Positions 4,783 to 39,150 of a stretch of 64,000 bases of DNA are shown here, piece after piece. Below the pieces are notes generated by a model, which did no database searches, was not told where the DNA came from, and saw nothing but the letters and a program-made list of their open reading frames with translations. The translations under genes were made by a program, and so were the position numbers. Source of the stretch: Colwellia polaris (GTDB lineage: Bacteria > Pseudomonadota > Gammaproteobacteria > Enterobacterales > Alteromonadaceae); the NCBI RefSeq assembly GCF_002104515.1, contig NZ_NBOE01000008.1:62001-126000 (forward strand). Direction: 5' to 3'. How positions within the stretch are numbered: the stretch's first letter is position 1; each line of letters begins with the position of its first letter.

Positions 4783-4858
4783 CAAAGTGCCTAAATAGAG
4801 GAAAGAAATTCTGATGAGTTGGCGTAGCAACCCATCAGTTTACACATTGAAATAATGT

Positions 4859-7216: not shown

Positions 7217-7429
7217 TGATAATGCATGGAAATACGCCTAAATCTTAGCCAATACGAAGCTAAAAAGCGCTAAACATTATTTTGCATAAATTGCATAGTA
7301 TTAGCTTTGCTTCACTTCTAGCTTATTGCTTCGGACTAATCCTTTCGGGCTCATGTGCTTGAATAATGTTTCGATATAAATTAAAAGTACATAATTAAAA
7401 TATATAACTAAAGTATATAACTAAAGTGC

Positions 7430-14854: not shown

Positions 14855-14867
14855 GTGTATTACCTGC

Positions 14868-15902
14868 TTACTGCAATGGACTGTTTGGCAAACTTACAAA
14901 AGCTAATAAGTCTTCAATGACCATATCTGGCGTAATGTTTAAGGCCTCTGCTTGAAAATTCACTAAAATTCGATGCCGCAACACTGCCGGGGCAACAAAT
15001 TTAATATCGGCCAGCGAAATCGCATATCGACCTGCCATTAAGGCTTTTGCTTTTGCACATAATATTAAGGCTTGTCCGGCTCTTGGTCCTGCTCCCCAAC
15101 GCACATGCTCTACAACACTTGGGCAGCAACTTTGTGATTGCTTTGCCTCTTTATCGTTAAGCCCGTTGGATGCAGCAGGTCTTGTCGAACGAGCCAAGTT
15201 TGCTGCATAAGCCAATAACTCATCTGAGACAGTGACATTTCGAACAAGCGCTTGTAAGGCAATAATATCATCGCCTGTTAGTACTTGGGTTAATTCGGAG
15301 TGACGACTACCCGTTGTACGTTTTAGAATTTCAATTTCTTCTTGCTCTGTTGGGTAGCCAACGCGTACAAACATTAAAAATCGGTCTAACTGTGCTTCAG
15401 GCAAAGGATAAGTGCCTGCTTGTTCAACCGGGTTTTGAGTGGCTAAAACAAAAAATGGTTTGGGTAAGCCATAACTTGTACCGGCATAACTTATTCGACG
15501 CTCTTGCATCGCTTCTAATAATGCAGCTTGGGTTTTAGGCGGTGTACGGTTTATTTCATCAGCCAATAAAATTTGGGTAAATACCGGACCTTTTTGAAAT
15601 TTAAAAAAACGTTCGCCACTTTCATGATCGGTTTCTAATATTTCAGTACCGACAATATCGCTAGGCATTAAATCTGGCGTAAATTGCACACGATTAAACT
15701 TCAAGGCTAATGTTTGTGCTAACGAACTTACCATTAAGGTTTTCGCTAACCCTGGCACACCTTCTAATAAACAATGTCCGCCAGCTAATATACTAATTAA
15801 TAGTTCATCAATAACGTCTTGTTGACCCACAATAACTTTGGCTATTTCGTCACTAACTTGATTAAGCTTGCCCAGTAATTCGGTTATCTGTTGCTCTTGC
15901 AT
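14868..15902 (-). CDS. MoxR family AAA+ ATPase
   Basis: A 344-residue MoxR ATPase. Walker A-type GVPGLAKT lies in the segment LLEGVPGLAKTLM near residue 50, Walker B is ILLADEINRTPPK, sensor 1 is FVLATQNPVEQ, and the MoxR-specific AGTYPLPEAQLDRF motif follows. The C-terminal lid domain ends in RHRILVNFQAEA. MoxR ATPases act as chaperones for vWA proteins. This one probably serves the DUF58 and BatA-like proteins encoded downstream. Confidence 0.9.
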   Translation of the reverse strand: MQEQQITELLGKLNQVSDEIAKVIVGQQDVIDELLISILAGGHCLLEGVPGLAKTLMVSSLAQTLALKFNRVQFTPDLMPSDIVGTEILETDHESGERFFKFQKGPVFTQILLADEINRTPPKTQAALLEAMQERRISYAGTSYGLPKPFFVLATQNPVEQAGTYPLPEAQLDRFLMFVRVGYPTEQEEIEILKRTTGSRHSELTQVLTGDDIIALQALVRNVTVSDELLAYAANLARSTRPAASNGLNDKEAKQSQSCCPSVVEHVRWGAGPRAGQALILCAKAKALMAGRYAISLADIKFVAPAVLRHRILVNFQAEALNITPDMVIEDLLAFVSLPNSPLQ

Positions 15903-23979: not shown

Positions 23980-24954
23980 TTACGCAAAGAGTTTTTTGCA
24001 GTGGCTTAAGTTTTGTCGTCGTTTGAGTTGTTGGTGTTCGCAATAATCACTGAGTACATCTTCGCGCCCTATTGCACCATGGAACTGTGTTTTAAATTCA
24101 GTGGTGATGATTAGCCAGTTTTCAGCTGATATGTTTAATCGGCTCAGTATGCTTGGTAGGTTTTCGTCGATGTAGCCAGGTTTATCTTCTCTGATACAAC
24201 GACCGGTAAGTTCGATTAATTGTAAATAGTCAGTCAGCTCAAACGGTAGGCCTTTGGGCATGTTTTCTCTGGGGTTACCAACAAAGGGCATGAGTGTTTT
24301 GGGTTGTTGGCTTTGTGTGGTTTGCTTGCAGCGCAGTTTAACGCTGGTGTGCGTTGAGTCTTCTGGGGTGTTGGCGATATTGGCGCGAATGGGGTTTAAG
24401 TCCACATAAGCCATACAAGCAGCAAGTGCGGCTTCATCAAGTAAAGCTTGAGATTTAAACCGACCTTCCCAGAACCTGCCTGTGCAGTTATCTTCTTGGT
24501 TGGCGGCTCGTGCAATGTTTTCGTTGATATAGCCCATAAACCAGCTGATTTTCATCAGGCGCTTTCGATACACTTCAGCGGTAGCTTCAACGATAGCCAT
24601 TAAGTGCTTTGGCAGTGCATCACCACGACAGTATTGTTGTGTGAGTATTGTGCCTTTGTATAAGCGATGCCAACGCTCAAGCACCTCTTTCATACTCCAT
24701 TGTTGGGCTTTTTCTTCATCAATAAATAACACCACATGATAATGATTACTCATTACCGCATAAGCACAAACGTCAATGGCAAACACTTGGCTGAGAAAGT
24801 GTAACTTCTCTTCTATCCATTCTCGGCGATGTTCAAAGCTTTGGCCTGATACGGTATCTTCACCGCATAAAAAAGCGCGTCGAACACAACGCGCCACACA
24901 ATGATAATACGGGGTGTTAACTAAACTAATTTGCTGCTTCCTTGGCGTAGCCAT
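23980..24954 (-). CDS. REP-associated tyrosine transposase (RAYT), intact copy
   Basis: Y1/HUH single-strand transposase of the RAYT (TnpA_REP) group. The HUH metal motif is HYH at residues 71-73 (AVMSNHYHVVLFI), and a candidate nucleophile is Tyr142 in KISWFMGYINE. The conserved NCTGRFWEGRFKSQALLD and ACMAYVDLNPIRA stretches follow. At 324 residues it has the longer C-terminus that the second copy lacks. Such enzymes move or amplify short palindromic repeats. It is flanked by 177-bp units on the 3' side and GGATGGGTGTCC-type repeats on the 5' side. Confidence 0.92.
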   Translation of the reverse strand: MATPRKQQISLVNTPYYHCVARCVRRAFLCGEDTVSGQSFEHRREWIEEKLHFLSQVFAIDVCAYAVMSNHYHVVLFIDEEKAQQWSMKEVLERWHRLYKGTILTQQYCRGDALPKHLMAIVEATAEVYRKRLMKISWFMGYINENIARAANQEDNCTGRFWEGRFKSQALLDEAALAACMAYVDLNPIRANIANTPEDSTHTSVKLRCKQTTQSQQPKTLMPFVGNPRENMPKGLPFELTDYLQLIELTGRCIREDKPGYIDENLPSILSRLNISAENWLIITTEFKTQFHGAIGREDVLSDYCEHQQLKRRQNLSHCKKLFA

Positions 24955-25225: not shown

Positions 25226-25984
25226 TCAATTTAGGATGGGTGTCCTGTTAATTCCGTTGTCAGTCAATTCAAACGGTAGGCCTTTGGGCATGTTTTCTCT
25301 GGGGTTTCCAACAAAGGGCATCAGGGTTTTGGGTTGTTGGCTTTGTGTCGCTTGCTCGCAGCGTAGTTTAACGCTGGTGTGTGTTGAGTCTTCTGGGGTG
25401 TTGGTAATATTGGCGCGAATGGGGTTTAAGTCCACATAAGCCATACAAGCGGCAAGTGCGGCGTCATCAAGTAAAGCTTGAGATTTAAACCGACCTTCCC
25501 AGAACCTGCCTGTGCAGTTATCTTCTTGGTTGGCGGCTCGTGCAATGTGTTCGTTGATATAGCCCATAAACCAGCTGATTTTCATCAGGCGTTTGCGATA
25601 CACTTCAGCGGTGGCTTCAACGATAGCCATTAAGTGTTTTGGCAGTACATCACCACGACAGTATTGTTGTGTGAGTATTGTGCCTTTGTATAAGCGGTGC
25701 CAACGCTCAAGCACTTCATTCATGCTCCATTGTTGGGCTTTTTCTTCATCAATAAATAACACCACATGATAATGGTTACTCATTACTGCATAAGCACAAA
25801 CGTCAATGGCAAACACTTGGCTGAGAAAGTGTAACTTCTCTTCTATCCATTCACGGCGGTGCTCAAAGCTTTTTCCGGATAAGGTATCTTCACCGCATAA
25901 AAAAGCGCGTCGAACACAACGCGCCACACAATGATAATATTGGGTATCTACTAAACTAATTTGCTGCTTCCTTGGCGTAGCCAT
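25226..25984 (-). pseudogene. Second RAYT transposase, 3'-truncated
   Basis: Almost identical to the intact copy over its first 240 residues, including HYH at 71-73 and Tyr142. It then diverges at PFELTD: coding sequence ends near 25259, where a repeat ending TTAATTCCGTT is joined, and the frame closes inside the repeat. About 80 C-terminal residues are lost. The high identity suggests recent duplication. The catalytic domain is complete, so residual activity cannot be excluded. Confidence 0.85.
25234..25253. repeat. RAYT right-end repeat, copy 3
   Basis: GGATGGGTGTCCTGTTAATT followed by CCGTT, joined directly to the truncated 3' part of the second RAYT gene. Confidence 0.9.
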
Positions 25985-26049: not shown

Positions 26050-26189
26050 GGATGGGTGTCCTGTTAATTAGTATTTAAGATGGGTGTCCTGTTAATTAGT
26101 AATTTCAATTTAGGATGGGTGTCCTGTTAATTTTTTTAGTTTAGTTCAGTGTTCTGTAATTTCAATTTAGGATGGGTGTCCTGTTAATT
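26050..26189. repeat. RAYT right-end repeats, copies 4-7
   Basis: Four copies of the GGATGGGTGTCCTGTTAATT motif (26050-26069, 26078-26097 with A at the first base, 26113-26132, 26170-26189), two with the longer upstream context AGTTCAGTGTTCTGTAATTT. The last is fused to the truncated IS110 transposase gene and supplies an in-frame ATG to it. Confidence 0.9.
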
Positions 26190-26927
26190 TCGCGCGCGGC
26201 AAATATAAAACCAGCCAGAGTGTTAACCAATGAAGAGCAAGGGTTGCAGTCGGTTGGGAAAATGAGAGATTTACTTGATAAACAAAAACTTCAGATATCA
26301 AACCAAGTACGTGGCTTATTATTAGAGTTTGGTATCATAATCAATAAAAGTATAAAAAGCTTTAAAGCGCGAATACCTGACATTTTAGAAGACGCTGAAA
26401 ATCAGTTACCGATGCCGATGCGTCACAGTATCAGTAAAATGTGGACGCTATATTCTCGCCTAGAAGATGATTTTAAAGTCATGAATAACGAATTAATCAA
26501 CTTAACAGGGCAAGACAATGTCTGTAAAAAATTCATGAAACTTGAAGGTGTTGGTCCCATAACATCGATGAGACTGAAAATACAGTTAGGTAGTGGTGAA
26601 CATTTCAACAGTGGTCGACAGGTATCTGCTTGCATTGGACTTACCCCAAAACAACATAGTAGCGGTGGAAAAATACAACTCGGCTCCGTAGGGAAAAGTT
26701 CATGTGATAAGCCATTACGAAGTTGTCTTTTTTTAGGGGCAAGAGCCGTGGTCTCCAAACTTAAAAACAGGCCAGCAAGAACAGAAAAAGAAAAGTGGTT
26801 AAAAGCCTTAATTGAACGTAGAGGATCTAATTGTGCATCAATGGCATTAGCCAATAAAAACGCACGAACCGCCTATGCGCTATTGAAAAATAATACAGAT
26901 TACGCACCAGTACTAATAACCAATTAA
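26172..26927 (+). pseudogene. IS110-family transposase, N-terminus lost
   Basis: From about 26191 the frame encodes the C-terminal two thirds of an IS110/IS116/IS902 transposase. It has a coiled helical region, the EGVGPITSMRLKIQLG segment, and ACIGLTPKQHSSGGKIQLGSVGKSS, where the catalytic-serine domain lies. The N-terminal DEDD (RuvC-like) domain is absent, replaced by a RAYT repeat whose ATGGGTGTCC provides the apparent start MGVLLIS. The right end of the element lies inside an integron attC (see 27545), so it belongs functionally with IS1111-attC type elements. It is presumably inactive. Confidence 0.85.
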
Positions 26928-27540
26928 AAATGATGATAAGCACATTAAAAATTTACACGTAAAATTGCTACAAAAAAGATCTTAAAAAAGGTTAGACCAA
27001 CCTTCAACAGCCTGATTTTTGCTCTGAACATATAGAATGTCGTGAAGGAGAATAGGCATGAAGGTGCGAATACATCAAAGTGGCCGGGATAGCTTCCCAT
27101 TATGAGCCCGAATATAAGCGCGCATCTAAAATTTTAAAAGTTTTTTCTTGTACAATATGAGGAGTCCATATAAGCCTTAATTGAACGTAGAGGATCTAAT
27201 TGTGCATCAATGGCATTAGCCAATAAAAACGCACGAACCGCCTATGCGCTATTGAAAAATAATACAGATTACGCACCAGTACTAATAACCAATTAAAAAT
27301 GATGATAAGCACATTAAAAATTTACACGTAAAATTGCTACAAAAAAGATCTTAAAAAAGGTTAGACCAACCTTCAACAGCCTGATTTTTGCTCTGAACAT
27401 ATAGAATGTCGTGAAGGAGAATAGGCATGAAGGTGCGAATACATCAAAGTGGCCGGGATAGCTTCCCATTATGAGCCCGAATATAAGCGCGCATCTAAAA
27501 TTTTAAAAGTTTTTTCTTGTACAATATGAGGAGTCCATAT
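26803..27540. repeat. 369-bp tandem duplication of the IS110 right end
   Basis: Two adjacent copies, 26803-27171 and 27172-27540, appear identical. Each holds the last 40 codons of the transposase plus about 245 bp of noncoding right-end DNA, ending GAGGAGTCCATAT. The tetramer AAGC stands at the start of each copy and again just after the second, so a microhomology-based duplication is likely. The long 3' noncoding end is where IS1111-type elements encode their bridge RNA; a short GGTTAGACCAACC hairpin is visible in it. Confidence 0.88.
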
Positions 27541-27544
27541 AAGC

Positions 27545-28012: not shown

Positions 28013-28023
28013 TATCGACTTGC

Positions 28024-28125
28024 CTTATAACGCCTTGCTAAGAGGCGAGTAATTGTTGGCTAAAATGTGGAGCGAAGCGGAACCGAGCCAACTGTTACGA
28101 GTCCTGCTTGAGCAACTTGTTAGAG
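28024..28125 (-). other. Integron attC recombination site
   Basis: About 102 bp. On the minus strand it runs from CTCTAACAAG to GGCGTTATAAG. The inner arms AGTTGGCT and AGCCAAC pair around a loop that contains CCGCTTCGCTCC, a sequence typical of Vibrio/Shewanella-type attC sites. The outer R''/R' cores are TCTAAC and GTTATAA, from two different cassettes. It separates two minus-strand ORFs. Confidence 0.9.
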
Positions 28126-28494: not shown

Positions 28495-28507
28495 TATTTG
28501 ATATTCA

Positions 28508-28514
28508 CTCTAAC
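28508..28514 (-). other. Upstream cassette boundary core (GTTAGAG)
   Basis: GTTAGAG on the minus strand is identical to the core at 28125-28119 and marks the other end of that cassette. The DNA upstream of it (TCTAATAAGCT) is short and not a full attC palindrome. It could be an attI, a collapsed attC, or the junction with the retron-bearing element. Confidence 0.55.
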
Positions 28515-28615
28515 AGCTTATTAGATTTCAATTTAATAATTAACCAATAAATTCAAATGCTTACCTAAACAAGCACTATACATGTATGCACTATGTAGTC
28601 GAAAAAATATTTATT

Positions 28616-29245
28616 TTATAAATTTTTATTCGTTCTCATTTGAAAGCAATCAGAAAACGTTTGAAATGAGTTATACACATCCTTGGTTAAACTTTGTCTA
28701 CCTGTAAGAATAGAACCTAAAATCGCAACCATGCCATTTACTCCATTTGATGCTTTTAATGCTTGCTCAAGTATTTCAATGGGGTAGCCTTTACTATGAC
28801 GATTAACAGCATGTAGACCACCATGAACATACCCACTCAAAGGCTTCCAAGAATATTTTTTAAACTCAAGTATTGGATTAATCGCATTCTTTGGAGCTGT
28901 TTCTTCAAGGCGTTTAATCATTTCACTCAACATTGGTAAATTGTCTGCTCTTTTTTGATTTTTTTCATTTAATTCAGCAGTAAGTTTACTTACTGCACAG
29001 TCTGTAGCAACATAAAGAATCCACATTCCTCGAACTAGACATTCAAACTGCAGTCTTAATAAACCTATGGCAGATGTGAAATTTCGAGAGGCTAAAAGAA
29101 TTTTAAAACTTTCGGCATGCTCTAAAGAAACACTGCACATTATTCTACTTACTTTCACTCTTTGTGAATTATCATAGAGAGGATAACTCAAAACATTAAG
29201 GACATAGTTTTCGAATTCCGAAGACCTTAAAAGTAATTTATCCAT
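28616..29245 (-). CDS. DUF6988-like protein
   Basis: A 209-residue helical protein with SLEHAESFKILLASRNFTSAIGLLRLQFECLVRGMWI, KKYSWKPLSGYVHGG and LKASNGVNGMVAILG segments, which I associate with the uncharacterised DUF6988 family. No membrane segment is obvious. It follows ptuB in the same direction after 147 bp. Type I-A retrons normally contain only RT, PtuA and PtuB, so this may be an extra cargo or defence gene, or a gene of the older cassette region. Function unknown. Confidence 0.55.
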   Translation of the reverse strand: MDKLLLRSSEFENYVLNVLSYPLYDNSQRVKVSRIMCSVSLEHAESFKILLASRNFTSAIGLLRLQFECLVRGMWILYVATDCAVSKLTAELNEKNQKRADNLPMLSEMIKRLEETAPKNAINPILEFKKYSWKPLSGYVHGGLHAVNRHSKGYPIEILEQALKASNGVNGMVAILGSILTGRQSLTKDVYNSFQTFSDCFQMRTNKNL

Positions 29246-29392
29246 AAACTATCCCTGAAATTTAGAACGCCCTGATAATGGCCTTTTAATTTAAATTAAA
29301 CCCAACAAAAACAATTAACTGATAACCTCTCTTTCAGGGGTGACAATAAAATATAGCGCATATGTAGCACGAGATAGTATTAAAGTTTAATA

Positions 29393-30223
29393 CTAATTTT
29401 CATCTTTTAATAAAGCCACAGCTATTGGACTTTCACTTATTAGAATATCGCGAGTGGTTTGAAATAACTTGGGTTTTTCAACTCCCCACTTACACAAAAA
29501 AAATTTAAATTTTTCCATGTTTCCTGAATCTCTAGCCCGCTTTTTCGCTCGTTCAAAATCATATAAGATCTGGAGCCTAGCTTTATTTAGACGTTCACAA
29601 TTTAAGTTAAATGAGTTAATCGTGTGCCTAACTAAACTAGCTGTGTCAGGGTGGTTATTTTTTATAAAACTTAATTTAGAACAGTATTCAACATTTTCGT
29701 TAAGCTCACCCGTTGCTTTATTAAAAGTGAATAATTGATGAAAACGGGGTAAATATACGGGGAAAAGGACATTACCATGCCAATCTTTATTAATGTTTTT
29801 CGATTTGGACTCTAAGAATTCTTTGTATGCATCGCAGCTTTTATTCTCCGACATACTAAAGTCTTCTAAATTCTTATTATAATTATCAGTACCCCCAATA
29901 CATACACCAATAACATTATCCCAATCTAGACTCCAATTTATTCCATGGTCTCCTAATTTCCAACCTGATTTAGATTTAAAATGCTCAACTCTCCGATGAT
30001 GCTCGAATATACCTGCTGGATTATTTACAGTTGAATCAGCTAAAGAAAGATCAACTTCGCAATAAGCACATAAGTCATATTGTTCGTCGAATAATTTTTT
30101 CTTTATTGCTGTTGAATCTAAACCTCCATTAAAATCCCTAAAATTTTTCCAAGTGTCATTAGGGTATTTTGATTCGTAATGAGTCAGCTTATTAGGTGGT
30201 CTTGATTTATCAACCTTCCTCAT
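29393..30223 (-). CDS. ptuB: Retron effector HNH nuclease PtuB
   Basis: HNH-type protein of the Septu/retron Ec78 PtuB kind. The N-terminal MRKVDKSRPPNKLTHYESKYP and WKNFRDF segments precede a zinc-finger HNH core: CAYC (58-61 of the longer frame), then the catalytic region FEHHRRVEHFKSKS with the VEHF His at 87. A later DWDNVIGVC strand follows. In type I-A retrons PtuB cleaves nucleic acid when the RT-msDNA guard is disturbed by phage. The start at 30223 (MRKVDKS) is preferred over 30241; either way the gene overlaps the end of ptuA and is translationally coupled. Confidence 0.88.
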   Translation of the reverse strand: MRKVDKSRPPNKLTHYESKYPNDTWKNFRDFNGGLDSTAIKKKLFDEQYDLCAYCEVDLSLADSTVNNPAGIFEHHRRVEHFKSKSGWKLGDHGINWSLDWDNVIGVCIGGTDNYNKNLEDFSMSENKSCDAYKEFLESKSKNINKDWHGNVLFPVYLPRFHQLFTFNKATGELNENVEYCSKLSFIKNNHPDTASLVRHTINSFNLNCERLNKARLQILYDFERAKKRARDSGNMEKFKFFLCKWGVEKPKLFQTTRDILISESPIAVALLKDEN

Positions 30224-31823
30224 ATTCTTTATCCCACACACGGTTATCTATATAAAGTTTAATTTTTATTAAAGCTTCATCATCTTCTCCAAAATGCGCA
30301 GTAAGAGTTTTACCTAATGATATACTACGTTCTTCCTTATATTTTTCTTGATAAACTAACTCTTTATATTCATTTAACATTTCGGTGTATTTATCATTAG
30401 GAGGTCTTTCATCAACAAAAAAAAGATTCTCTAGCACCCATGAAGATACAGCCCCTCTTGTTCCTTTAGGCGGTCGATATTTTTTCCCATTTCTTAAAAG
30501 CCAAATGTTGTCACTATCAATCGTGTGACAGACTTGTGGACTATGAGTGGTAATTATGAATTGTAAATTAGGAAATGTATGCTCGAGCCTCTGGATTATT
30601 TTTTGTTGCCAAGACGGATGTAGATGCAGATCAATTTCATCTATTAATACAATTCCCGAACCATTTAGTGATTCAGTACTATTAGGATTTAATAATGTTA
30701 GTCTTCTAGCAATATCCGCGACTAAGGATAATACACTTTTTTCACCCTGCGATAACTGGAGTACACTTAAAGTAACTTCATTCTTAACGATAGTAAGATC
30801 AAGTGGACTGCGCATGAGCTTGAGGTTACTAAAACCATCAAGAAACATGTAAATTGCATTCTTCACAACCTCTAGAGATTTATTATCAATATTAGAAGTA
30901 GCGTTTAGTTGTTTTTTTAAAGCATTAACTTCTGATTGATATTGCTTAATTAGTTCTTTCGTTTCTGGGTGTTTAGTTAACAATTTCTTAAGTAGAGGGC
31001 TATTTATTTCTTCTTCTTTAGATTTGATTTTCGACTTTAATACAATAAATTCTGAGTTTTCTGAGTTATCTTTCTCAACCATCTCTTTAAACCATCGAAA
31101 AAACAATTTAAAGTCAGCTTTTCCAGATAAACTTTTATTGTAAGCCTTTGCTTTATTCCAGATATGGTTATCTTTTATTTCTTCTGAGTCTTCTATATCT
31201 TTTGTTGTAACGTCATTGGCACGACCAACTGTATAAGAAGCAAATAGAGGTAATGATAAATCAGGCCTCTCTGAATTAGCTAATCGAAGTACTTTACTTA
31301 ACTCGTTAATTTCTGAATACTTTCCCTTTAGTTGTGTTTCTTCAAGAACTCGGCTTGACGCTAACTCCATGGAAAATTCACAATCCTGTAGACTAAAAGT
31401 AGGAATTATCTTTGAAAATTTAGATTTTTCCGTAATTTCAAGTTCGTCGATCAACTCACCGTTCGGGGAGTTAGTAGCAAGTCTGGCGCTCAAGTGAGTA
31501 AGGGTCTTTTGAATTGCCTCTAATATTGTGGATTTACCACAACCGTTATTTCCTATTAATATAGTTGTATTATTCTTTTTTGAAAATTCAATTTCAATAT
31601 TATTAAAGCCTTTAAAATTCTCTAATTTTAAAGAATCAATCTTGAATTTATTATTAATTAATTGTCCCGCACAAACCTGTTTATAATGTTGATATTTTTC
31701 TGGACTTTTTTCGACGCTTATTCCTTCGTTATATAGCATAGCCAACTGAAAGGATGCTGCGAAATCACCTTTTTGGGAGCGCCTACTTAATTTTATACTG
31801 CCTTTACTTTCGTTGCTGCTCAT
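30210..31823 (-). CDS. ptuA: Retron effector ATPase PtuA
   Basis: A 537-residue ABC/OLD-like ATPase. A short Sel1-like segment (GDFAASFQLAMLYNEGISVEKSPEKYQ, about 19-45) is followed by an ATPase head with Walker A GNNGCGKST (91-99), a coiled coil (about 258-310), signature LSQGE (357-361) and Walker B IVLIDE (391-396), with the TTHSPQV switch beyond. The N-terminal Sel1-like piece is typical of retron-associated PtuA. PtuA and PtuB form the toxic complex restrained by the RT and msDNA. Its start overlaps the RT stop by 4 bp. Confidence 0.9.
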   Translation of the reverse strand: MSSNESKGSIKLSRRSQKGDFAASFQLAMLYNEGISVEKSPEKYQHYKQVCAGQLINNKFKIDSLKLENFKGFNNIEIEFSKKNNTTILIGNNGCGKSTILEAIQKTLTHLSARLATNSPNGELIDELEITEKSKFSKIIPTFSLQDCEFSMELASSRVLEETQLKGKYSEINELSKVLRLANSERPDLSLPLFASYTVGRANDVTTKDIEDSEEIKDNHIWNKAKAYNKSLSGKADFKLFFRWFKEMVEKDNSENSEFIVLKSKIKSKEEEINSPLLKKLLTKHPETKELIKQYQSEVNALKKQLNATSNIDNKSLEVVKNAIYMFLDGFSNLKLMRSPLDLTIVKNEVTLSVLQLSQGEKSVLSLVADIARRLTLLNPNSTESLNGSGIVLIDEIDLHLHPSWQQKIIQRLEHTFPNLQFIITTHSPQVCHTIDSDNIWLLRNGKKYRPPKGTRGAVSSWVLENLFFVDERPPNDKYTEMLNEYKELVYQEKYKEERSISLGKTLTAHFGEDDEALIKIKLYIDNRVWDKEYEEG

Positions 31824-32776
31824 TTTAAGTCCTCACTATTAAATTTTCTGATTCTTATCATTATATCGCTACCATACTTTTTAGTTAATCTTACAATGAA
31901 GTTTGGTTCAATATAATAAGCAAAACCAAGCAACCCTTTAAGGTGATTAATTTCAGTTAAGTCATTTAATTGGTTAGTTTTGAATTTGTGAACTAATGCA
32001 GATATATATCGTTTTCTGATTCTACCGATAGACAACTTATTACTATTAGTTAGTGTTATACCCGTGACATGCCTATTATGTTTTTTCGAAGAAAACACCG
32101 TTTTTGAGCTATTAATATTTATCTCACCTTCAAATTCTATTTGTAAGGCTTCATTGACCATATCGACAAGATTAAAAAGTACTGATTTTATGTTTGTAGA
32201 AAATGTTAAATCATCGGCATATCTAGAATAGTTTATATCTAAAGCTTTACATATATCTTCGATTTTTCTATCAAACGAATACATAACGATATTTGAAATT
32301 AGAGGGGAGCTTGGTGCTCCAATACTTAAGACTAATGGAGCATTAATTTTTTTTGACCTATTCCAAAATAATATTTCTGATAATATTTTGGAATCGCTTT
32401 TAGATACACTCACTCCTTGTTCCGCTAGCACTTTAAATAACATTATAGGTGTGATGCTATTGAAAAAATTTTCGAAATCCAATTTCAATAAATATTGTGA
32501 GTTCAAATGAACAGCAGCGTTATCTTTTATACTACATTTTTTTATGTATGCCTTAGCTGCATGATGAACTTTTACATGAGGAAGCAATAAATCTACCACC
32601 TTTCGTTGAACGTCTTTTAATGAAGAGGTAGGTTGAGCAATAGTCCTAAAGCCAATAGTGCGTTTAGGTATTTTGAATACTTTATAGTGCGTAGAAGGTG
32701 TTTTTTTGACAAGCTCTTTGAGTTCAGGGAACTCTTTAATTAATGCTTGAACTATTTTAAATTCCATTAAAATCAT
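31820..32776 (-). CDS. Retron reverse transcriptase (type I-A)
   Basis: A 318-residue retron RT. The retron-specific NAxxH motif is NAAVH (86-90), the catalytic site is YADD (186-189) in NYSRYADDLTFS, and the second retron motif VTG lies at 237-239. Motif A is KLDFENFFNSI and motif B is SIGAPSSPLISNIVM. It copies the msd part of the RNA encoded just upstream into msDNA, with 2'-OH priming. The start is the ATG at 32776 or the Met at 32767. Order RNA-RT-PtuA-PtuB with 4-bp overlap identifies a type I-A retron (Ec78, Vc95 relatives). Confidence 0.93.
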   Translation of the reverse strand: MILMEFKIVQALIKEFPELKELVKKTPSTHYKVFKIPKRTIGFRTIAQPTSSLKDVQRKVVDLLLPHVKVHHAAKAYIKKCSIKDNAAVHLNSQYLLKLDFENFFNSITPIMLFKVLAEQGVSVSKSDSKILSEILFWNRSKKINAPLVLSIGAPSSPLISNIVMYSFDRKIEDICKALDINYSRYADDLTFSTNIKSVLFNLVDMVNEALQIEFEGEININSSKTVFSSKKHNRHVTGITLTNSNKLSIGRIRKRYISALVHKFKTNQLNDLTEINHLKGLLGFAYYIEPNFIVRLTKKYGSDIMIRIRKFNSEDLK

Positions 32777-32791
32777 TTCTTAATTAAATTT

Positions 32792-32817
32792 AGCGATGCA
32801 AGTTACCTTGCATCGCT
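32792..32817. terminator. Perfect hairpin between msd and RT gene
   Basis: AGCGATGCAAG pairs with CTTGCATCGCT (11 bp) around a 4-nt loop. On the plus strand it is followed by TTTTTT, a textbook intrinsic terminator; on the minus (retron) strand it lies 15 bp before the RT ATG and is followed only by AAATTT. It may block antisense transcription into the retron RNA, or act as an RNA processing or attenuation element between msd and RT. Confidence 0.6.
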
Positions 32818-32819
32818 TT

Positions 32820-33000
32820 TTTACTCTTTACTTAAAGACGCGGAATCAAATTATTGATCCGTTATCTGTGCGAAGTATGAGTACATATCACGGATCAATA
32901 ATTTGATTTCGCAACTGTAAATGTACTCAATAAATTTGAGTTTGGCGCAACGCCAAACTAGATTAAACCATTAAATTCAATCAAAAATACACTAAAGAGC
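32820..33000 (-). ncRNA. Retron msr-msd RNA
   Basis: Read on the minus strand from about 33000: a1 CTCTTTA (32999-32993) pairs with a2 TAAAGAG (32830-32824). The msr stem-loop AGTTTGGCG/CGCCAAACT lies at 32959-32939 and a small CTCAA/TTGAG loop at 32940-32926. The msd is one long hairpin (32912-32840): 23-nt arms with one mismatch (19 perfect bp) and a 27-nt loop. Position upstream of RT and architecture match known retrons. The exact branching G and msDNA ends cannot be fixed by eye. Confidence 0.85.
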
Positions 33001-33008
33001 TCTTGAAT

Positions 33009-33035
33009 TGTATATTCATCACAAGTAAAGATCAA
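33009..33035 (-). promoter_or_regulatory. Probable retron promoter
   Basis: On the minus strand TTGATC (33035-33030) and TATACA (33014-33009) are 15 bp apart. Transcription would begin near 33002, directly at the a1 repeat of the msr-msd RNA, which supports both calls. Confidence 0.45.
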
Positions 33036-33416
33036 TGCTACTTATATTATAAATATCCTTATAATATTCATCTAAGAAGACATTTAATTATAACTACCGG
33101 ACTAAATAATTAATTAGGAAACTCATTTACAGTAGGAGTATAGGCTTTAAGTTCAACTGTTATTTGAGTCCACTCAGTTGTATTGACTTTTATTAGTACA
33201 GTTATTTACAGAACTCCAAGTAAAAGCATCTTTACCATTCTGGCAGTCGACTAACTAAAGCCTTAACATTACTATTTGAGTGTTTTTCGGTGTGAGCTAA
33301 AGCCTATTTCTAGCTAAAGGCTCTTTTGAGGTGTGCTGAGTTGCTCATGTTTGTAGATTTACAACAAAATAAGCCTTTAGCCTATTCTGGACGATATTAG
33401 GCTTTACCTAAGGCTG
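33036..33416. other. Intergenic region between rep and retron
   Basis: No ORF stands out. Several AGCTAAAGGC / AGCCTTTAG-type inverted and direct repeats cluster at 33295-33405. AGCCTA (33379-33384) pairs with TAGGCT (33398-33403) just after the rep stop codon on the minus strand and could be its terminator. Confidence 0.35.
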
Positions 33417-35228
33417 TTATGCTTTTTCTATTTTCCAGTGGTAATGACGTGTTACAACCGCTTTACCTGCGAACCATAACCCTTTTACTTTGAGTATCAG
33501 TTCTCCATCATAATAACTTTGCAGGCATTCGCCTGTTTGCTCATTAATATTTAAATCGTAATGTAACTGAATAGGTCTGTCTTTGTGTTTTATGTGTAAT
33601 CCGCCCATAGCGAGCGTGTAACCTTGCCAATCACTGTTATCGGCAGCATATCGCGCTTGCTCTAATACGCTATCGGCTTTATCCATGAACTTGATACGTA
33701 ACCGCCTGAGTTCACGCCAAACAGAAACACTTGCACCACCAATTTGTTGAAATTGACGAATACACCAACAAGACGCCCATGCATCAATGCGCTGTGCGAC
33801 CAATAGCGAGTCATTACCAAACTTATCTTCGCCAACTCCTTCACCATCAATATTTTTAACGATGTACTTTAGGATATAGCCCGTTGCTGAGCCTTTTGTT
33901 GGGTCGATTTTTTTAAAGTCACAACGATTCTCTGCCGCGCCTTTTTCATCACCATCAACTTCTAAGGCGTAACGGCGAATAACGCTCTCTAAGGCTTTAA
34001 GTTTTTCAGCGTCAATGAAAAGCAACATGTGCCAATGCGGTGTTCCGTCATGTTGAGGTTCAACGACACGAAAGCCATAAGGTGAAATACCTTGTCTTTG
34101 AAGCTCTGCTCTTGTTTTTTGCCATTGGCGATTTAAATACGCGTTGGCCGCATCAGGCATTAACCCTTGCCACTTTGGATTCGCAGCACCAGACTTAGCA
34201 AACGCGCGATGATATTTTGAAGGGCAAGTAACAGTAATAAATAAAGCCTCATGGCCTAACTCTTTAGCGAGGTTTTCAAAGCCTCTTGCTCGGCAAATAA
34301 GCTCGTCTTTTCGTACCTTGGGGTTTGACACATTTAAGTCAGATATTTCTTGTAATGAATAGCGTTGACCTTGTTCGTTAAGAATGAAACTTGAACTGAG
34401 TAATTCTTGATTTCGTAACCGTTGAGCAATACGATTTTTAGTCGTTATGTTACTGGCATAAACTTGTCTTTTACTGTTAACGAAATTTAAATGCAATGCG
34501 GCCTTTTCATTTGCTTGGGTAATGAGTTTGCGAAACTTGCGTAACCACCAACGATTATCAGCATAACGCTTTATACAACCTGAAAGCTGAATTGTTTTAT
34601 TTAGCTCAATAGGTTTGATTGAAAAGGTTTCAACATAACGGGATAAAAATTCATATACGGTTTTTTGCTCTGCCATAGCGAATTCGCTAGCCTTTTCGCT
34701 GTTGGTATAGCGAACGGGAGCAAAACTTTCGTTAACGGTTTCGTTACCACTTACTTTTTCGTTACGAAATACGGGCGAAATATTTCGCTCAATTTCGCTA
34801 CTGTTTGGCTTATGATTTTCGTTAACGGAAATATCAGGCGTCGACATTCCGTTAACGGAATTTACATGATGGACATAAAGAAAACTAACCTTTTGCGGGT
34901 CGATAACAATTTGTCGGCAATAGTTCGCACACTCTTTCGCTTTAGCGTTAATGTCATCATCAAAACAAAAGAACATACTGGCGAGCTTATTGGGTAATAA
35001 TTGATAAAGTTGGGTTGAGGTATCCAAAATATGACGATTACGCTCATAGTCACTTGGTTTGTTAAATGCCTGCGTTAAAATCGTGCTTTTAATGATGTTA
35101 GAAAAAGGCGCTAGCTTTCTCGTAATAAATGCAGCATCCGCCCTATCAACTTGAGCTAAATAAGGTGCAATAACATTATCTTTATCGTTAATGGCTTTAA
35201 CGAGTATTTTTTCTTTAAAAGTATTCAT
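33417..35228 (-). CDS. Replication endonuclease, phage gpA-like (HUH)
   Basis: A 603-residue HUH-type rolling-circle initiator of the P2 gene A class. The HUH metal motif HWH is at 398-400 (PQHDGTPHWHMLLFI), preceded by FITVTCPSKYH; the active-site tyrosines are in YILKY (Tyr451, Tyr455). The N-terminal 200 residues are divergent. Residues about 124-170 are a low-complexity linker encoded by a cluster of DNA repeats (34727-34861). It would nick the element's origin to start replication. It lies 5 bp downstream of the 97-aa gene. Confidence 0.85.
   Translation of the reverse strand: MNTFKEKILVKAINDKDNVIAPYLAQVDRADAAFITRKLAPFSNIIKSTILTQAFNKPSDYERNRHILDTSTQLYQLLPNKLASMFFCFDDDINAKAKECANYCRQIVIDPQKVSFLYVHHVNSVNGMSTPDISVNENHKPNSSEIERNISPVFRNEKVSGNETVNESFAPVRYTNSEKASEFAMAEQKTVYEFLSRYVETFSIKPIELNKTIQLSGCIKRYADNRWWLRKFRKLITQANEKAALHLNFVNSKRQVYASNITTKNRIAQRLRNQELLSSSFILNEQGQRYSLQEISDLNVSNPKVRKDELICRARGFENLAKELGHEALFITVTCPSKYHRAFAKSGAANPKWQGLMPDAANAYLNRQWQKTRAELQRQGISPYGFRVVEPQHDGTPHWHMLLFIDAEKLKALESVIRRYALEVDGDEKGAAENRCDFKKIDPTKGSATGYILKYIVKNIDGEGVGEDKFGNDSLLVAQRIDAWASCWCIRQFQQIGGASVSVWRELRRLRIKFMDKADSVLEQARYAADNSDWQGYTLAMGGLHIKHKDRPIQLHYDLNINEQTGECLQSYYDGELILKVKGLWFAGKAVVTRHYHWKIEKA
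34727..34861. repeat. TTTCGTTA repeat and palindrome cluster inside rep
   Basis: Within the rep coding sequence lie TTTCGTTAACGG (34727), TTTCGTTACC (34739), TTTCGTTACGAAA (34757-34769), GCGAAATATTTCGC (34775-34788, perfect palindrome), TTTCGTTAACGGAAA (34817-34831) and ATTCCGTTAACGGAAT (34846-34861, perfect palindrome). More TTCGTTAAC-like copies occur at about 35318-35360. Candidate iterons or replication origin. Confidence 0.7.
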
Positions 35229-35232
35229 GTAA

Positions 35233-35526
35233 CTAGCGCGCTATCGCTAGCATCAAGACATAAACTTGACCTGCTTCAGTCAAGAAGTAATGCTCATGCT
35301 TCACACCAAATGGATAAATAAATTCGCTCGTTACAAGGTTTTCGTTAACAAGTTTAACGAGTGTTCGCATATCAAACTTGTAAGGAACACCATCTTTACT
35401 AATGTAACTATGAAGGCCATTTACTTTACGGTATGAGCAACCAATTTCACGGCATATTTCAAAATGCGTTTCGCGATAAGATAGCCAAATTAACAGGCGA
35501 ATTTGCTCATTAGTTAACTTAGGCAT
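35233..35526 (-). CDS. Small wHTH-like protein of the integrative element
   Basis: A 97-residue protein with a likely winged helix (EQIRLLIWLSYRETHFEICREIGCSYRKVNGLHSYI) and a C-terminal helix ending in AGQVYVLMLAIAR. Family not recognised. It lies between the AlpA-like gene (75 bp) and rep (5 bp), so it is probably cotranscribed with rep and may regulate replication or copy number. The frame has good composition and flanking genes fit tightly, so it is probably real. Confidence 0.65.
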   Translation of the reverse strand: MPKLTNEQIRLLIWLSYRETHFEICREIGCSYRKVNGLHSYISKDGVPYKFDMRTLVKLVNENLVTSEFIYPFGVKHEHYFLTEAGQVYVLMLAIAR

Positions 35527-35601
35527 GTTTACCCCCTAAAGGGTTTTGGCCTAGGTATTGTTCTGGGTATAAACCAGTGAAAAAATGCTGAGAATATTGC
35601 A

Positions 35602-35805
35602 TTACGCCATTCCACCTTCACTGGTTGAATAACATAAGTTATCTTCAATGTACTTTTCGATATCTTGTAGACGATAACGAATAGCTCGAGCGCCTACCTT
35701 GATGAATGGAATTCTTGCGCCTGCCCATCTGTCACGCTCAAGAAAGGCTTCACTAACACTTAAAATAGCAGCTGTTTCTTTGGTATTTAATAATTTGATT
35801 TGCAT
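35602..35805 (-). CDS. AlpA/excisionase-like DNA-binding protein
   Basis: A 67-residue MerR/AlpA-type helix-turn-helix protein: LLNTKETAAILSVSEAFLERDRWAGARIPFIKVGARAIRYR is the standard AlpA pattern, with the wing FIKVGARAIRY and a C-terminal helix DIEKYIEDN. In P4-like elements AlpA activates excision or integrase expression. A set of palindromic repeats at 35885-35932 lies just upstream of its start and is the likely operator. Confidence 0.85.
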   Translation of the reverse strand: MQIKLLNTKETAAILSVSEAFLERDRWAGARIPFIKVGARAIRYRLQDIEKYIEDNLCYSTSEGGMA

Positions 35806-35884
35806 GTTTGTTACTCGTAGTTTTAAAAGACGAGTACAGTTTTGATCATGTTTTAATTGGTATGAATGTCGCTAGGGGGTAGCG

Positions 35885-35932
35885 GTATACCTATAGGGCG
35901 TAGGAGTATACTTATAGGGGGTATAAGTATAC
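35885..35932. promoter_or_regulatory. Operator repeats upstream of alpA-like gene
   Basis: GTATACCTATAGGG (35885-35898) and GTATACTTATAGGG (35906-35919) are direct repeats spaced 21 bp, two helical turns. The second forms a perfect inverted repeat, GTATACTTATA (35906-35916) with TATAAGTATAC (35922-35932), around GGGGG. They lie between the alpA-like start codon and the upstream gene, consistent with binding of a dimeric regulator. Confidence 0.65.
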
Positions 35933-35945
35933 TTTTGGCGTATTA

Positions 35946-36761
35946 TTAATTAATAGAAAGCTTAATTTGACCATTTTTAAATTTACCTATCCACTTTCCA
36001 AATTCCACCTGTTTTTCTTCTGAACTTGATAAAGCCAGTAAAGGGCTGCCTAATTCGATTAATTCAGCTTCAATTAATTTACTAGCGTGTCGATTCGAAC
36101 GACTCGTGTATTTTGCCAAATATAGTCGAATGACCTCGTCTTTGAGGGGCTCTATTCGCTTACCTTTTGAAGTACCACCTTTGCTGCCTGTTATGACTGA
36201 TTTTTGTTTTTTATCAAATAAACATTCTGCTCGCGCAATACTATCTAATGTTTCTGTAGCCATATCGAGGATAAATTTCTCTGAATATAACTTCATTGCT
36301 TGCGACATATCGTCATCACCATAGCTTTTATGCCTAGCGCCTGAAATCTCAGCCGACTGCATAAGTGTTAACGTGGCAAACATTTCACACCACAGAGCTT
36401 TTTTAACCGCTATTGTTGTTAAATCGAAATAATCAGAAAGTAAATATAAAGCACGACCTTGAGTAAATGTAATCGCCTTTCTCGTTGTGGAAGCAGATAG
36501 TTGCTGCATAGAAAGGATTGTTAATAAATTTTCACCAACTTGTAACATCGAATCAATACCGATAGACATTAACAAAATATCTTCATTAGTGCGTTTTGAT
36601 AGAATATCACGGGCAATATGTGCGGCGTCATTACCTTCTTCTTCAAGCACGAAATCTAACGGTTGCAGTTTTTCACGAATGAACACATTTGGGTGATTAT
36701 ATCCCTCACTAGCGCTTGCTATAAGCGATTTAGCTTCAATTTCAATTTTATCTTGATACAT
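35946..36761 (-). CDS. Hypothetical protein between integrase and alpA
   Basis: A 271-residue mostly helical soluble protein of unrecognised family. There is a C-terminal region with a basic stretch (ITGSKGGTSKGKRIEPLKDEVIRLYLAKY) and an overall pattern seen in accessory proteins of integrative elements. It overlaps the 3' end of the integrase gene by 14 bp, so the two are coupled. No catalytic motif is seen. Confidence 0.65.
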   Translation of the reverse strand: MYQDKIEIEAKSLIASASEGYNHPNVFIREKLQPLDFVLEEEGNDAAHIARDILSKRTNEDILLMSIGIDSMLQVGENLLTILSMQQLSASTTRKAITFTQGRALYLLSDYFDLTTIAVKKALWCEMFATLTLMQSAEISGARHKSYGDDDMSQAMKLYSEKFILDMATETLDSIARAECLFDKKQKSVITGSKGGTSKGKRIEPLKDEVIRLYLAKYTSRSNRHASKLIEAELIELGSPLLALSSSEEKQVEFGKWIGKFKNGQIKLSIN

Positions 36762-37971
36762 AATCTTCCATTGTTATGTTGCAGTTATCTTTAAAAAAGT
36801 CTGTTATGCGTTGCATAGGCGCTCGTAAGCGGTCATGGTTTGCAATAATATAACCTTCAGTAACATCATTGCCACTTTTATGATTAACGAGTCGTTTAAT
36901 GGCATAGGATGATATATCTAACGATTCAGCGACCGTAATAAACGTCCTCCTTAAATCATGAAAGGTAAATTTGACACCTGACTTTTCACATAGGTGTTTT
37001 AAGGCTTTTTCTGGGTAAGCAAAATACTGTGACTTTCGTGAAGAAAACACATAGTTATTGATTTTAAAACGTTGTCGATAATTGAGTATGGCAATCAGTA
37101 CATCAGATAATGGCAATGTTAACGGCTCTTTGTTTTTGGTATCAGGTATATGTATGGTTCCTTCTTCCAAATCAACGTTATCCCATAAAAGCGTTGCCCC
37201 TTCATTTTTTCGTAAACCTGTTAGCAATAAAAATAAGATATAATCTGCACCTACATGGTGTGATTCTGCCTCTGCATTAAATTTCATTTCTTGAAGTGCT
37301 TTGTACCAAGATATTAATTGCGTTGGTTTAATGATGTTTTGGCGTCTAGGCTCTTTAGCCCATGCTTTCATTTGCCCAAGTCGCTCAACAGGGTTGTGAG
37401 GAAATAAACTTAACCCATTATTGTCTTCGTAATGCTCTTTAGCAAATTTGTATATGGCACTTAAAATACGCATAGCGGTATTGGCGTAGGAAGGACTATG
37501 GCTTTTTAATAGTTTGCCATGACGCACCGAAACCATGTCTTTTGTAATATCGACGAGGCGCTTATTCTTCCAATCCTTTAACTCACCGTTCAAATACATT
37601 TCATATTGAACGTAGGTTTTATCTTTTAAGTAAGACTTAACACGACGATAATCTTGCCATACTTGCCATAGCGTTGTTTGCTCAGCTTGTGCTTGCTGTC
37701 TTTTGGCAATGGGATCTATACCTGTAGCAATTTCACCTAAATACTTAAGTGCCTCTTTACGCGCCATTTCAACCGTTATTTCAGGATAGCGACCCAGTGT
37801 TATTCGTTTGAGTTTGCGGTTGATACGTTTCTCTAGAATAAACGCTTTACTACCGCCTGTAGTCACACGAACGGCAAAGCCTTTTAATTCAGAATCTCGG
37901 TAGAAAACTTGCCCTTTTTCAGGAAGAGTAAGTTTGTCTACAAAAGACTTGGTTATTTTGCATGTAGACAT
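36748..37971 (-). CDS. int: P4-type tyrosine recombinase integrase
   Basis: A 407-residue integrase with an N-terminal Arm DNA-binding domain (DUF4102: residues 1-85, LPEKGQVFYRDSELKGFAVRV), a SAM-like core-binding domain, and the catalytic domain: Arg254 in LTGLRKNE, His338 and Arg341 in HDLRRTF, a His in VNHKSG, and nucleophile Tyr374 in VTEGYI. It integrates the element, usually into a tRNA or conserved gene end. It faces away from the chromosomal genes at 39 kb. No tRNA is seen nearby, so the target is unknown. Confidence 0.93.
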   Translation of the reverse strand: MSTCKITKSFVDKLTLPEKGQVFYRDSELKGFAVRVTTGGSKAFILEKRINRKLKRITLGRYPEITVEMARKEALKYLGEIATGIDPIAKRQQAQAEQTTLWQVWQDYRRVKSYLKDKTYVQYEMYLNGELKDWKNKRLVDITKDMVSVRHGKLLKSHSPSYANTAMRILSAIYKFAKEHYEDNNGLSLFPHNPVERLGQMKAWAKEPRRQNIIKPTQLISWYKALQEMKFNAEAESHHVGADYILFLLLTGLRKNEGATLLWDNVDLEEGTIHIPDTKNKEPLTLPLSDVLIAILNYRQRFKINNYVFSSRKSQYFAYPEKALKHLCEKSGVKFTFHDLRRTFITVAESLDISSYAIKRLVNHKSGNDVTEGYIIANHDRLRAPMQRITDFFKDNCNITMEDYVSR

Positions 37972-39150
37972 TGTGTAGTCATGCTATATAAAAATTAGGT
38001 GGGCTATTTAAAACAGCAAAGGGGCGCCTTGTCAATTAAAATAAGGGATGTAAGTAACATGAGTATTTATTCAAACTACGTAAAACAACTGGAAATAAAA
38101 CAGCTTATTATGAGGAAAAATTCCTTGTTTAAACAAGGAAAAAATCCTTCTTTCATATTTTAAGATAATCAAAACATACCTGATTTATTCACTATCTACA
38201 ATAAGTTACTAATAAAACATCTCGTTATGCTAAAGACATAAACGAGAATATTTCCTTTTTATTGGATGAAAGCAGGAAATCGCACTAATCTGTACAAATA
38301 CACAGTTAAATTTGTGACGTAACAAAATAAATAAGGATAAATATAAACTGCGGAGTCAGGCTCATTGAAATATCAGCAATGTGCTCAAACCGAAATATTA
38401 GTCGAGTTATACTACGTCTGTTTTAGGTTCACAATTGCCATAAAATAAATGAATGATTACATCTTTTTTCTAAATGCTTAAAAATTTTAGGGTGGCAAAC
38501 TTAAATATAATTTGCTGGCAACGATAAATGCAATTCGGTGGCACTGATGATCGATATATCCAACTTATTAAACTTATATTAAATCAAACCCACTAATCGT
38601 AGAAAATTATTACTTTTATCTTGCCTTGTGAGTAAAAGTGCATTAATGCAAAAAAAACTATGGTTACAAATCACACGTATTATTACTCTACTCTGTGTAT
38701 TCATGGTTAATAGTACGATCTACCCTGATAAAAATACGATCTTTTAGCACTTTGATTACAAATGGGATATTTTAATAACTTATCTAAAAATTATTTTTTT
38801 AAATTGCACCTGTCACTTTTTAACCAACACGATAAACAATTTATAAACAAACACTTACACAGTTAAACAATAGTTGTACACAATGATACCCACAGCTTAT
38901 GTGGATATCATTAAATGCACAATTTTTAAATTAAGCCATTTAATTGACTTTATATTTAACTCTAGACATATAAATACACTAGCTTGACAGCAATAATTCA
39001 TTTAATACAACCTAAGTACAGGTTAACCAGTTTATTAAATAGCAATTCAAGCATACTTGGTTGCACTGTATTGTATGATAATCGCTAGAGATCATACGTA
39101 TTAACCGTTATAGTAATGCCCACAAGATTTAAATTATCAAGAAGTTATTT
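37972..39150. other. Gene-poor junction right of integrase
   Basis: About 1.18 kb without a convincing gene. A bidirectional palindrome lies at 38121-38140. A 34-codon ORF at 38059-38163 (MSIYSNYVKQ start, GGGATG upstream) is possible but weakly supported. One end of the integrative element (att site) should lie here; no direct repeat matching the left side was found by eye. Confidence 0.4.
38117..38145. terminator. Bidirectional terminator-like palindrome
   Basis: TTCCTTGTTTAAACAAGGAA (38121-38140) is a perfect 20-bp palindrome preceded by AAAAA and followed by AAAAA, so each strand reads as a hairpin with a T-run. It could isolate the element from the chromosome or be a recombinase or regulator binding site. 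Confidence 0.55.

Follow-up and report, generated by a model that had tools for sequence, protein, structure and literature searches.

The described systems closest to the locus analysed here are the retrons Eco4 (Ec83) and Eco7 (Ec78). For both, PtuAB alone is reported to be toxic, and in Eco7 the toxicity is neutralised by msr-msd together with the reverse transcriptase (RT) (PMC11555353). The complete Eco4 operon is described as largely neutralising its accessory toxin (PMC8989520). Eco7 PtuAB is reported to deplete tRNA-Tyr, and no fall in tRNA levels was observed with Eco4 PtuAB (PMC11555353).

The locus lies in a 64-kb window of Colwellia polaris DNA (the whole stretch of 64,000 nucleotides that was analysed, to which all positions refer unless another locus is named). 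Its gene order and RNA plan are those of Eco7; in a locus whose RT matches the Ec78 chain end to end (L036), however, RT and PtuA are only about 49% and about 31% identical to those of the window. Its likeness to Eco4 extends to all three proteins, since RT, PtuA-type ATPase and HNH protein are each nearest to chains of the Ec83 entry 9e8z, and an Escherichia coli locus with an RT that matches the Ec83 chain from end to end (L032) has msr hairpin 2, the msd base and a1/a2 in common with the window. The Ec83-like RNAs of L032, L033 and L059 have a 5-nt msd loop, whereas that of the window has 27 nt and contains a segment complementary to the msr tail. A short loop was not taken as defining for Ec83 because L057, L060 and L067 also have long loops. 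St85-like loci (L019, L034 and L087) have a related msr or a1/a2 plan. They differ in other respects: a St85 family effector is annotated before the RT in L034, in L019 the RNA and the RT downstream of it are about 1.2 kb apart, and no PtuA match was found in the examined DNA of the three loci. A filamentous Vibrio phage (10N.261.55.B9_PE001; L031, positions 6443-9849) also carries a type I-A retron, with annotated RT, ATPase and PtuB and an msr RNA.

The retron operon and its RNA

An Rfam scan and folding of the window located the msr-msd RNA of a retron at 32822-33000 on the minus strand, and the genes for RT, PtuA and PtuB follow directly downstream in one operon (Table 1). The best PADLOC model for the RT was RT_I-A (428.5 bits), followed by RT_II-A (361.5 bits), and the conserved RT motifs, including YADD, were present in an alignment of 10 RTs. 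All three proteins cover their family models nearly end to end. The histidine of VEHFKSKSG is intact in the window PtuB-type HNH protein; this residue is alanine in the 9o4a chain. The assignment of the locus as a type I-A retron is supported by the RT_I-A match, the presence of PtuA and PtuB, and an msr-msd RNA that has a1/a2 and precedes the RT gene.

Table 1. Positions of the retron features and of the element that carries them, in window coordinates.
Feature	Position	Strand	Basis or remark
Promoter-like TTGATC-17-TACAAT	33007..33035	-	9/12 consensus matches
a1, CTCTTTA	32999-32993	-	base-paired to a2; paired cells 97.6% across six aligned RNAs
Candidate branching guanosine, TTTAGT context	32992	-	assigned by comparison with Eco1 (UAGC)
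msr hairpin 1, 9 bp, 4-nt loop	32982-32961	-	folding
msr hairpin 2, 9 bp, UUG loop	32959-32939	-	folding and alignment
msr tail TGAGTACAT, complementary to msd loop	32929-32921	-	place from sequence; covariation
msd hairpin, 23-nt arms	32840-32912	-	pairing and both-sided changes in 11/22 pairs
msd loop segment ATGTACTCA, partner of msr tail	32886-32878	-	sequence and covariation
a2, TAAAGAG	32830-32824	-	pairs with a1
11-bp hairpin, terminator-like, between a2 and RT gene	32792..32817	-	folding
Retron reverse transcriptase, 318 aa	31820..32776	-	PADLOC, PDB sequence search
PtuA-type ATPase, 537 aa	30210..31823	-	NCBIfam PtuA 570.9 bits (cut-off 500)
PtuB-type HNH nuclease, 282 aa	29393..30241	-	NCBIfam PtuB 209.1 bits (cut-off 150)
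DUF6988 / candidate defence protein PDC-S52, same element	28616..29245	-	profile matches
Integrative element, retron as cargo	28512..38110		circular form 9587 bp

The nearest PDB chains to the three proteins all belong to retron Ec83 (9e8z), with E values of 1.5e-104 for the RT, 1.5e-193 for the ATPase and 1.2e-56 for the HNH protein. Entry 9n69, whose type is not given by its chain names, followed at 2.4e-88 for the RT and, behind a second Ec83 entry, at 4.9e-58 for the ATPase. Chains of Ec78 (9l7p/9nnb) matched the RT at 2.7e-82, Ec78-named chains matched the ATPase at about 1e-50, and no Ec78-named chain was among the PDB sequence matches of the HNH protein listed at E up to 1. With all three proteins nearest to Ec83 among solved chains, the locus is, as judged by sequence, a member of the Ec83 (Eco4) subgroup, and Ec78 was excluded as nearest relative (for the RT, 2.7e-82 against 1.5e-104). 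The tRNA-Tyr target of Eco7 was not adopted for the window PtuAB, because no reduction of tRNAs was observed with Eco4 PtuAB (PMC11555353). The retron itself is a further well-defined member of a known defence type. It very probably belongs to type I-A, in the Ec83 (Eco4) subgroup, and works by the family mechanism, a judgement that does not extend to the RNA contact described below. Across the class, PtuA was detected in seven of 369 genomes, including the window's own (none of these seven loci was used in the RNA comparison), and RF00170 in one of 369, the window's own only; across the order, RF00170 was detected in 16 of 394 genomes.

RF00170 (msr; 32922-33000, minus strand) was the sole Rfam match in the window at gathering thresholds; it scored 54.9 bits, where the gathering score is 52. 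The region 32815-33005 folds at -61.5 kcal/mol, compared with -33.6 +/- 3.5 in 200 shuffles (z -8.0). In the msd, 32908-32890 and 32862-32844 form 19 perfect pairs around a 27-nt loop, below which one A.C mismatch is followed by a 3-bp GCG/CGC helix. No other perfect hairpin with a loop of 3-40 nt in the 64 kb is as long as this 19-bp arm, the runner-up having 17 bp, and perfect hairpins in 300 first-order Markov resamples of the region did not exceed 9 bp. At the predicted priming site the G is present in the context UAGU instead of UAGC, as is also seen in L012, L017 and L035. The msd stem of the window includes a perfect GATC/GATC pairing (32893-32896 and 32856-32859); the same place (columns 110/148) is mismatched in the five Ec83-like relatives of alignment A2.

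Covariation was assessed in two alignments. In A2, which comprises six Ec83-like RNAs (the window, L057, L060, L067, L032 and L059), both-sided changes affect 11 of the 22 msd pairs and 93.2% of cells are paired; over the whole structure, 21 both-sided cells were counted compared with 7.1 in shuffles, a value reached in 0/500. In A3, with 17 further RNAs, both-sided changes affect 19 of the 22 msd pairs and 92.0% of cells are paired. The compensated changes indicate that the msd hairpin is selected as a structure.

A preliminary description, made from the letters of the window alone, had drawn a1/a2, two msr loops and an msd stem with 23-nt arms, 19 perfect base pairs and a 27-nt loop, and the coordinates confirm every one of these elements. 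The covariance comparison that it had proposed gave strong support for the msd, and its reading of a type I-A retron RNA is upheld by the RT_I-A score and by PtuA and PtuB in the same operon. The claim that the RNA could be drawn in full holds for a1/a2, the msr hairpins and the msd, but the complementarity between the msd loop and the msr tail had been missed; of the two relatives it had named for comparison, Ec78 and Vc95, Ec78 gave way to Ec83, which is nearer for RT, ATPase and HNH protein. A start site at the first position of the RNA had also been predicted. The promoter-like site ends at 33007, 6 nt before 33000, which would place transcription start near 33000. Taken alone this site is at chance level (two sites found, 3.6 expected), but 20 of the 25 retron RNA clusters have a -10-like box ahead of a1, compared with 9.2 expected from shuffles, and the predicted start site near 33000 is plausible. 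The distance from box to a1 is 6-9 nt in 18 of the 20 clusters and 11 and 13 nt in the other two; L036 (Ec78) and L057 are among the five clusters without such a box. A hairpin of 9-17 bp separates a2 from the RT gene in 13 of the 14 loci shown, with a T run after about half; this is a raw count over a set that includes two pairs of near-copies. It is possible that this hairpin is an attenuator separating the RNA from the RT message.

Complementarity of the msr tail and the msd loop

The segment of the window RNA right behind the conserved TTATT of the msr (TGAGTACAT) can form nine Watson-Crick pairs with a segment of the msd loop (ATGTACTCA), a number reached by 38 of 50,000 loop shuffles. 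Different sequences are complementary at the same places in other retrons: GAGCA/TGCTC in L060, GAGTGA/TTACTC in L057, GAACGAG/CTCGTTC in L031, GAACGG/CCGTTC in L037, GAACGGGTTT/AAACTCGTTC in L089 and, with wobbles, GGTGTTT/GAGCACT in L064, while L017 reaches 11 bp. The same contact is predicted in the Ec78-like L036 with 5 bp (GAACG/CGTTC), and complementarity was also found in the St85-like group, which contributes seven clusters. The literature matches listed, a set that did not take in the Ec78 and Ec83 structure papers or the retron classification paper, contained no earlier account of a tail-loop contact. The new element is the covarying contact itself, which links the retained portion of the RNA to the loop of the portion that is first copied and then lost.

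The contact was evaluated across 54 RNAs in 25 clusters at 80% similarity by comparing each tail (14 nt) with its own loop (31-nt apical window) and with those of other clusters. Copies of the window (L001, L014-L016, L043 and L063), copies of L012 and L013 (L068 and L070) and of L017 (L054), a sequence with masked bases (L079), a truncated one (L055) and one with the RNA of L064 (L018) were dropped. Loci in which the RNA pattern was unrecognised (L042, L081, L082, L085, L092, L093, L095, L097, L098, L100-L146 and L148) or which were not scanned for RNA (L003-L011, L021-L030, L039 and L044-L050) were left out. Mean duplex energy was -10.1 kcal/mol with own loops and -6.1 kcal/mol with swapped loops, and the observed sum was reached in 0/100,000 permutations, by energy or by helix weight; because all the sequences are related, these counts are not strict probabilities. 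The window's own tail-loop pair ranked first of 25 and that of L036, by helix weight, sixth. With the window left out, 0/20,000 permutations reached the observed value, and the same count was obtained with 12 clusters at 72% similarity and with the 18 I-A clusters alone; for the seven non-I-A clusters the counts were 9/20,000 by energy and 176/20,000 by helix weight.

The signal was also local. Restricted to the loop +/-10 nt, the helix weight gave z 7.25 (0/20,000); shifting by 12 nt, where the loop is still overlapped, gave z 4.6 and 2.5, shifting by 24 nt in either direction gave z -1.2 and -1.4, and comparing the tail with two other parts of the RNA gave z 0.5 and -0.7. In the nested minimum-energy fold of the window, part of the tail pairs instead with the segment behind the branching G, which would compete with the contact. 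This pairing, found in some minimum-energy folds, was rejected for want of covariation (helix z 0.2; energy z -1.3, 1,896/20,000).

A complementarity without function, arising from the ancestry and composition of a few lineages, would account for part of these observations. Decoys scored above zero (z 2.6 for the reversed and 1.9 for the reverse-complemented apical region), and part of the signal is therefore shared composition; permutations of related sequences are not independent trials; and several clusters, an Ec83-like one included, have a poor helix. By helix weight, 11 of the 25 clusters placed the own loop among the top two and six (L012, L013, L019, L020, L087 and L067) placed it below tenth; L067, of the Ec83 subgroup, has only six pairs, three of them wobbles. 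We nevertheless consider this explanation unlikely, given the absence of any permutation among 100,000 that reached the observed sum, the persistence of the signal at 12 clusters, within I-A and in the seven other clusters, and its peak on the loop, with nothing 24 nt away or on the post-branch segment. The complementarity thus suggests, at the level of sequence, that the msr tail and the msd loop covary over type I-A and related retrons.

Pair by pair, the picture is uneven. In A2, the six pairs of columns 75-80 form in all four loop-bearing RNAs (24/24 cells) with one both-sided change, and the remaining three contact pairs form in 7/14 cells. In A3, five core contact pairs form in 82.4% of cells and three of these five show both-sided changes; two additional pairs reach 41.9%. 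In L059 and in the Ec83-like E. coli RNAs of L032 and L033 the loop is short and has no partner for the tail, so that the contact is absent. As we read the alignments, the subgroup of L013, L056, L078 and L099 would use another register, if it pairs at all.

Allowing G-U pairs raised the signal from z 4.9 to 6.0; allowing A-C pairs instead gave 4.1. These values bear on the proposal that a single protein reads both the RNA tail and the DNA loop, the pairing being a by-product. Since the msDNA loop, once synthesised, carries the msr tail sequence in the same sense, complementarity is not easily told from identity, and to that extent the proposal fits. It is improbable in view of the wobbles, which add signal where the A-C control does not, and of the pairs GAACGGG/CTCGTTC, GAGTGA/TTACTC and GAGCG/CGTTC, in which wobbles keep the pairing and break the identity. 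A possibly conserved GCGAAG-like msDNA loop motif was seen by eye in several loops.

A possible role ahead of reverse transcription

By analogy with the family, msDNA synthesis, toxin neutralisation and defence would be expected at this locus. An RNA starting near 33000 on the minus strand would fold so that a1 pairs with a2, the msr forms its two hairpins and the msd its single long one, and the RT would prime from the 2'-OH of G32992 and copy the msd. The RT and the msDNA would then keep the PtuA/PtuB nuclease inactive until phage infection damages the RT-msDNA complex, at which point the nuclease would be freed and the infected cell would stop growing. The predicted template runs from about 32832 to about 32914-32921, with estimated ends, and the msDNA should be about 83-90 nt long before any 5' trimming; the DNA of 32832-32916, as the predicted product, folds with z -8.9. 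The preliminary description had placed the msDNA within 32840-32912, which is correct for the msd hairpin and slightly narrower than the template predicted here. Since the Eco4 product is reported as 79 bases long and unbranched (PMC8989520), 5' trimming may occur here too.

Copying would erase the contact. The msDNA loop has the tail's own sequence and therefore cannot pair with the tail, and the partner of the tail in the msd loop is template, which is unpairable once copied and once the RNA template has been removed, as RNase H is reported to do in retrons (PMC12887533); the contact would thus belong to the RNA before or during copying. The solved complexes hold finished msDNA, so the contact is not expected to be visible there. 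In Eco2 the 3' end of the msr is described as pairing with the 3' end of the msDNA within the RT active site (PMC12405507), and in Eco8 the same ends likewise form a DNA-RNA duplex (PMC12887533).

From this we infer that the contact shapes the RNA ahead of reverse transcription, either by placing the template or by pairing two RNAs. A fuller reading, held tentatively and with somewhat less than even confidence, is that the I-A/St85 lineage has a conserved tertiary tail-loop helix that exists only in the un-copied RNA and is irreversibly destroyed by copying. The helix would serve as a built-in "not yet copied" state, in which the template is placed or two RNAs are brought together ahead of msDNA synthesis, and would have been lost in lineages such as Ec83.

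The geometry of the RNA bears on how the helix might form. The linker from the tail to the GCG of the msd is 8 nt in the window (counted from the sequence; the automatic stem, with a mismatched extension, gives 0) and 11 nt in L036, against a stem of 19-23 bp, and with an 8-nt linker a fold in cis would be nearly fully stretched. This favours a contact in trans, in which the loop of one RNA pairs with the tail of another and helps the assembly of a multi-copy complex, as does the palindromic core GTAC common to the tail and loop of the window. A path across the deep groove would shorten the cis route and could keep a fold in cis feasible. Retron oligomers are known, as in the Eco2 trimer bridged by msr RNA (PMC12405507) and the 4:4:4 complex of Eco8 (PMC12887533), but these complexes contain msDNA, with the RNA loop of the msd already gone. 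On balance the trans arrangement is conceivable and somewhat doubtful. Whichever way it forms, a helix restricted to the un-copied RNA would matter for retron editors, where a donor sequence is reported to take the place of the msd loop and upper stem (PMC12548924): in editors of this lineage the contact, if real, would be broken.

The integrative element and its surroundings

The retron is cargo of an integrative element. A contig from an assembly of an uncultured Colwellia (locus L001; the whole contig, of 9642 bp, is L161) overlaps with itself by 55 bp at its termini, which closes it to a circle of 9587 bp, and this circle contains window positions 28512-38098 with zero mismatches. Both ends of the element have the 12-nt core AACAGCTTATTA, which was derived from the circle junction; the repeats reported, of 14 nt or longer, included no direct repeat that links the two ends. 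The element encodes an integrase, proteins of 271 and 97 aa, a GPA-type replication protein, the retron operon and the DUF6988/PDC-S52 protein. The occurrence of an identical circular form in a separate assembly argues against the view that the retron has decayed or fallen silent and left its RNA fold as a relic, as do three proteins nearly full-length to their family models and a 19-bp RNA stem without a broken pair; such a state is highly improbable, and a retron working by the family mechanism is the reading retained for the cargo.

Related integrases (65-97% identical) accompanied by a GPA gene were found in G009, G012 (two) and G018. The four related elements keep a 26-nt motif, ACTTGGAGTTCTGTAAATAACTGTAC (window 33194-33219, minus strand), that lies just behind the GPA gene, and the DNA past it differs between the window element and all four; the motif is possibly a replication or boundary signal. 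The same or a near-identical core stands at the integrase end of each related element and again beyond its cargo, there followed by A (GTTA), at 3718 in L156, 5063 in L157, 11775 in L158 and 5886 in L159. The cargo-end core of the window element, at 28500-28530, likewise reads GTTA, which we take to resemble the end of an integron attC site. Repeats like those at window 28020-28122, presumably attC-like, occur in three of the four related stretches (L156, L157 and L158), and L156 has two integron integrases (3930-4928 and 13911-14876). The element may attach at such integron attC-like sites. The retron as an integron cassette was not supported, as it sits inside the excised circle of an element with its own integrase.

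Other, possibly mobile sequences lie nearby in the window. Two adjacent, near-identical ORFs, one of them shortened (23980-24954, 324 aa, and 25226-25984, 252 aa), read like transposase-type proteins, presumably REP-associated. They are followed by the ORF of an IS110-family transposase (26172-27544), which matches only the last two thirds of NF033542 (251 aa) and behind which exact 276-nt copies recur at a spacing of 369 nt.
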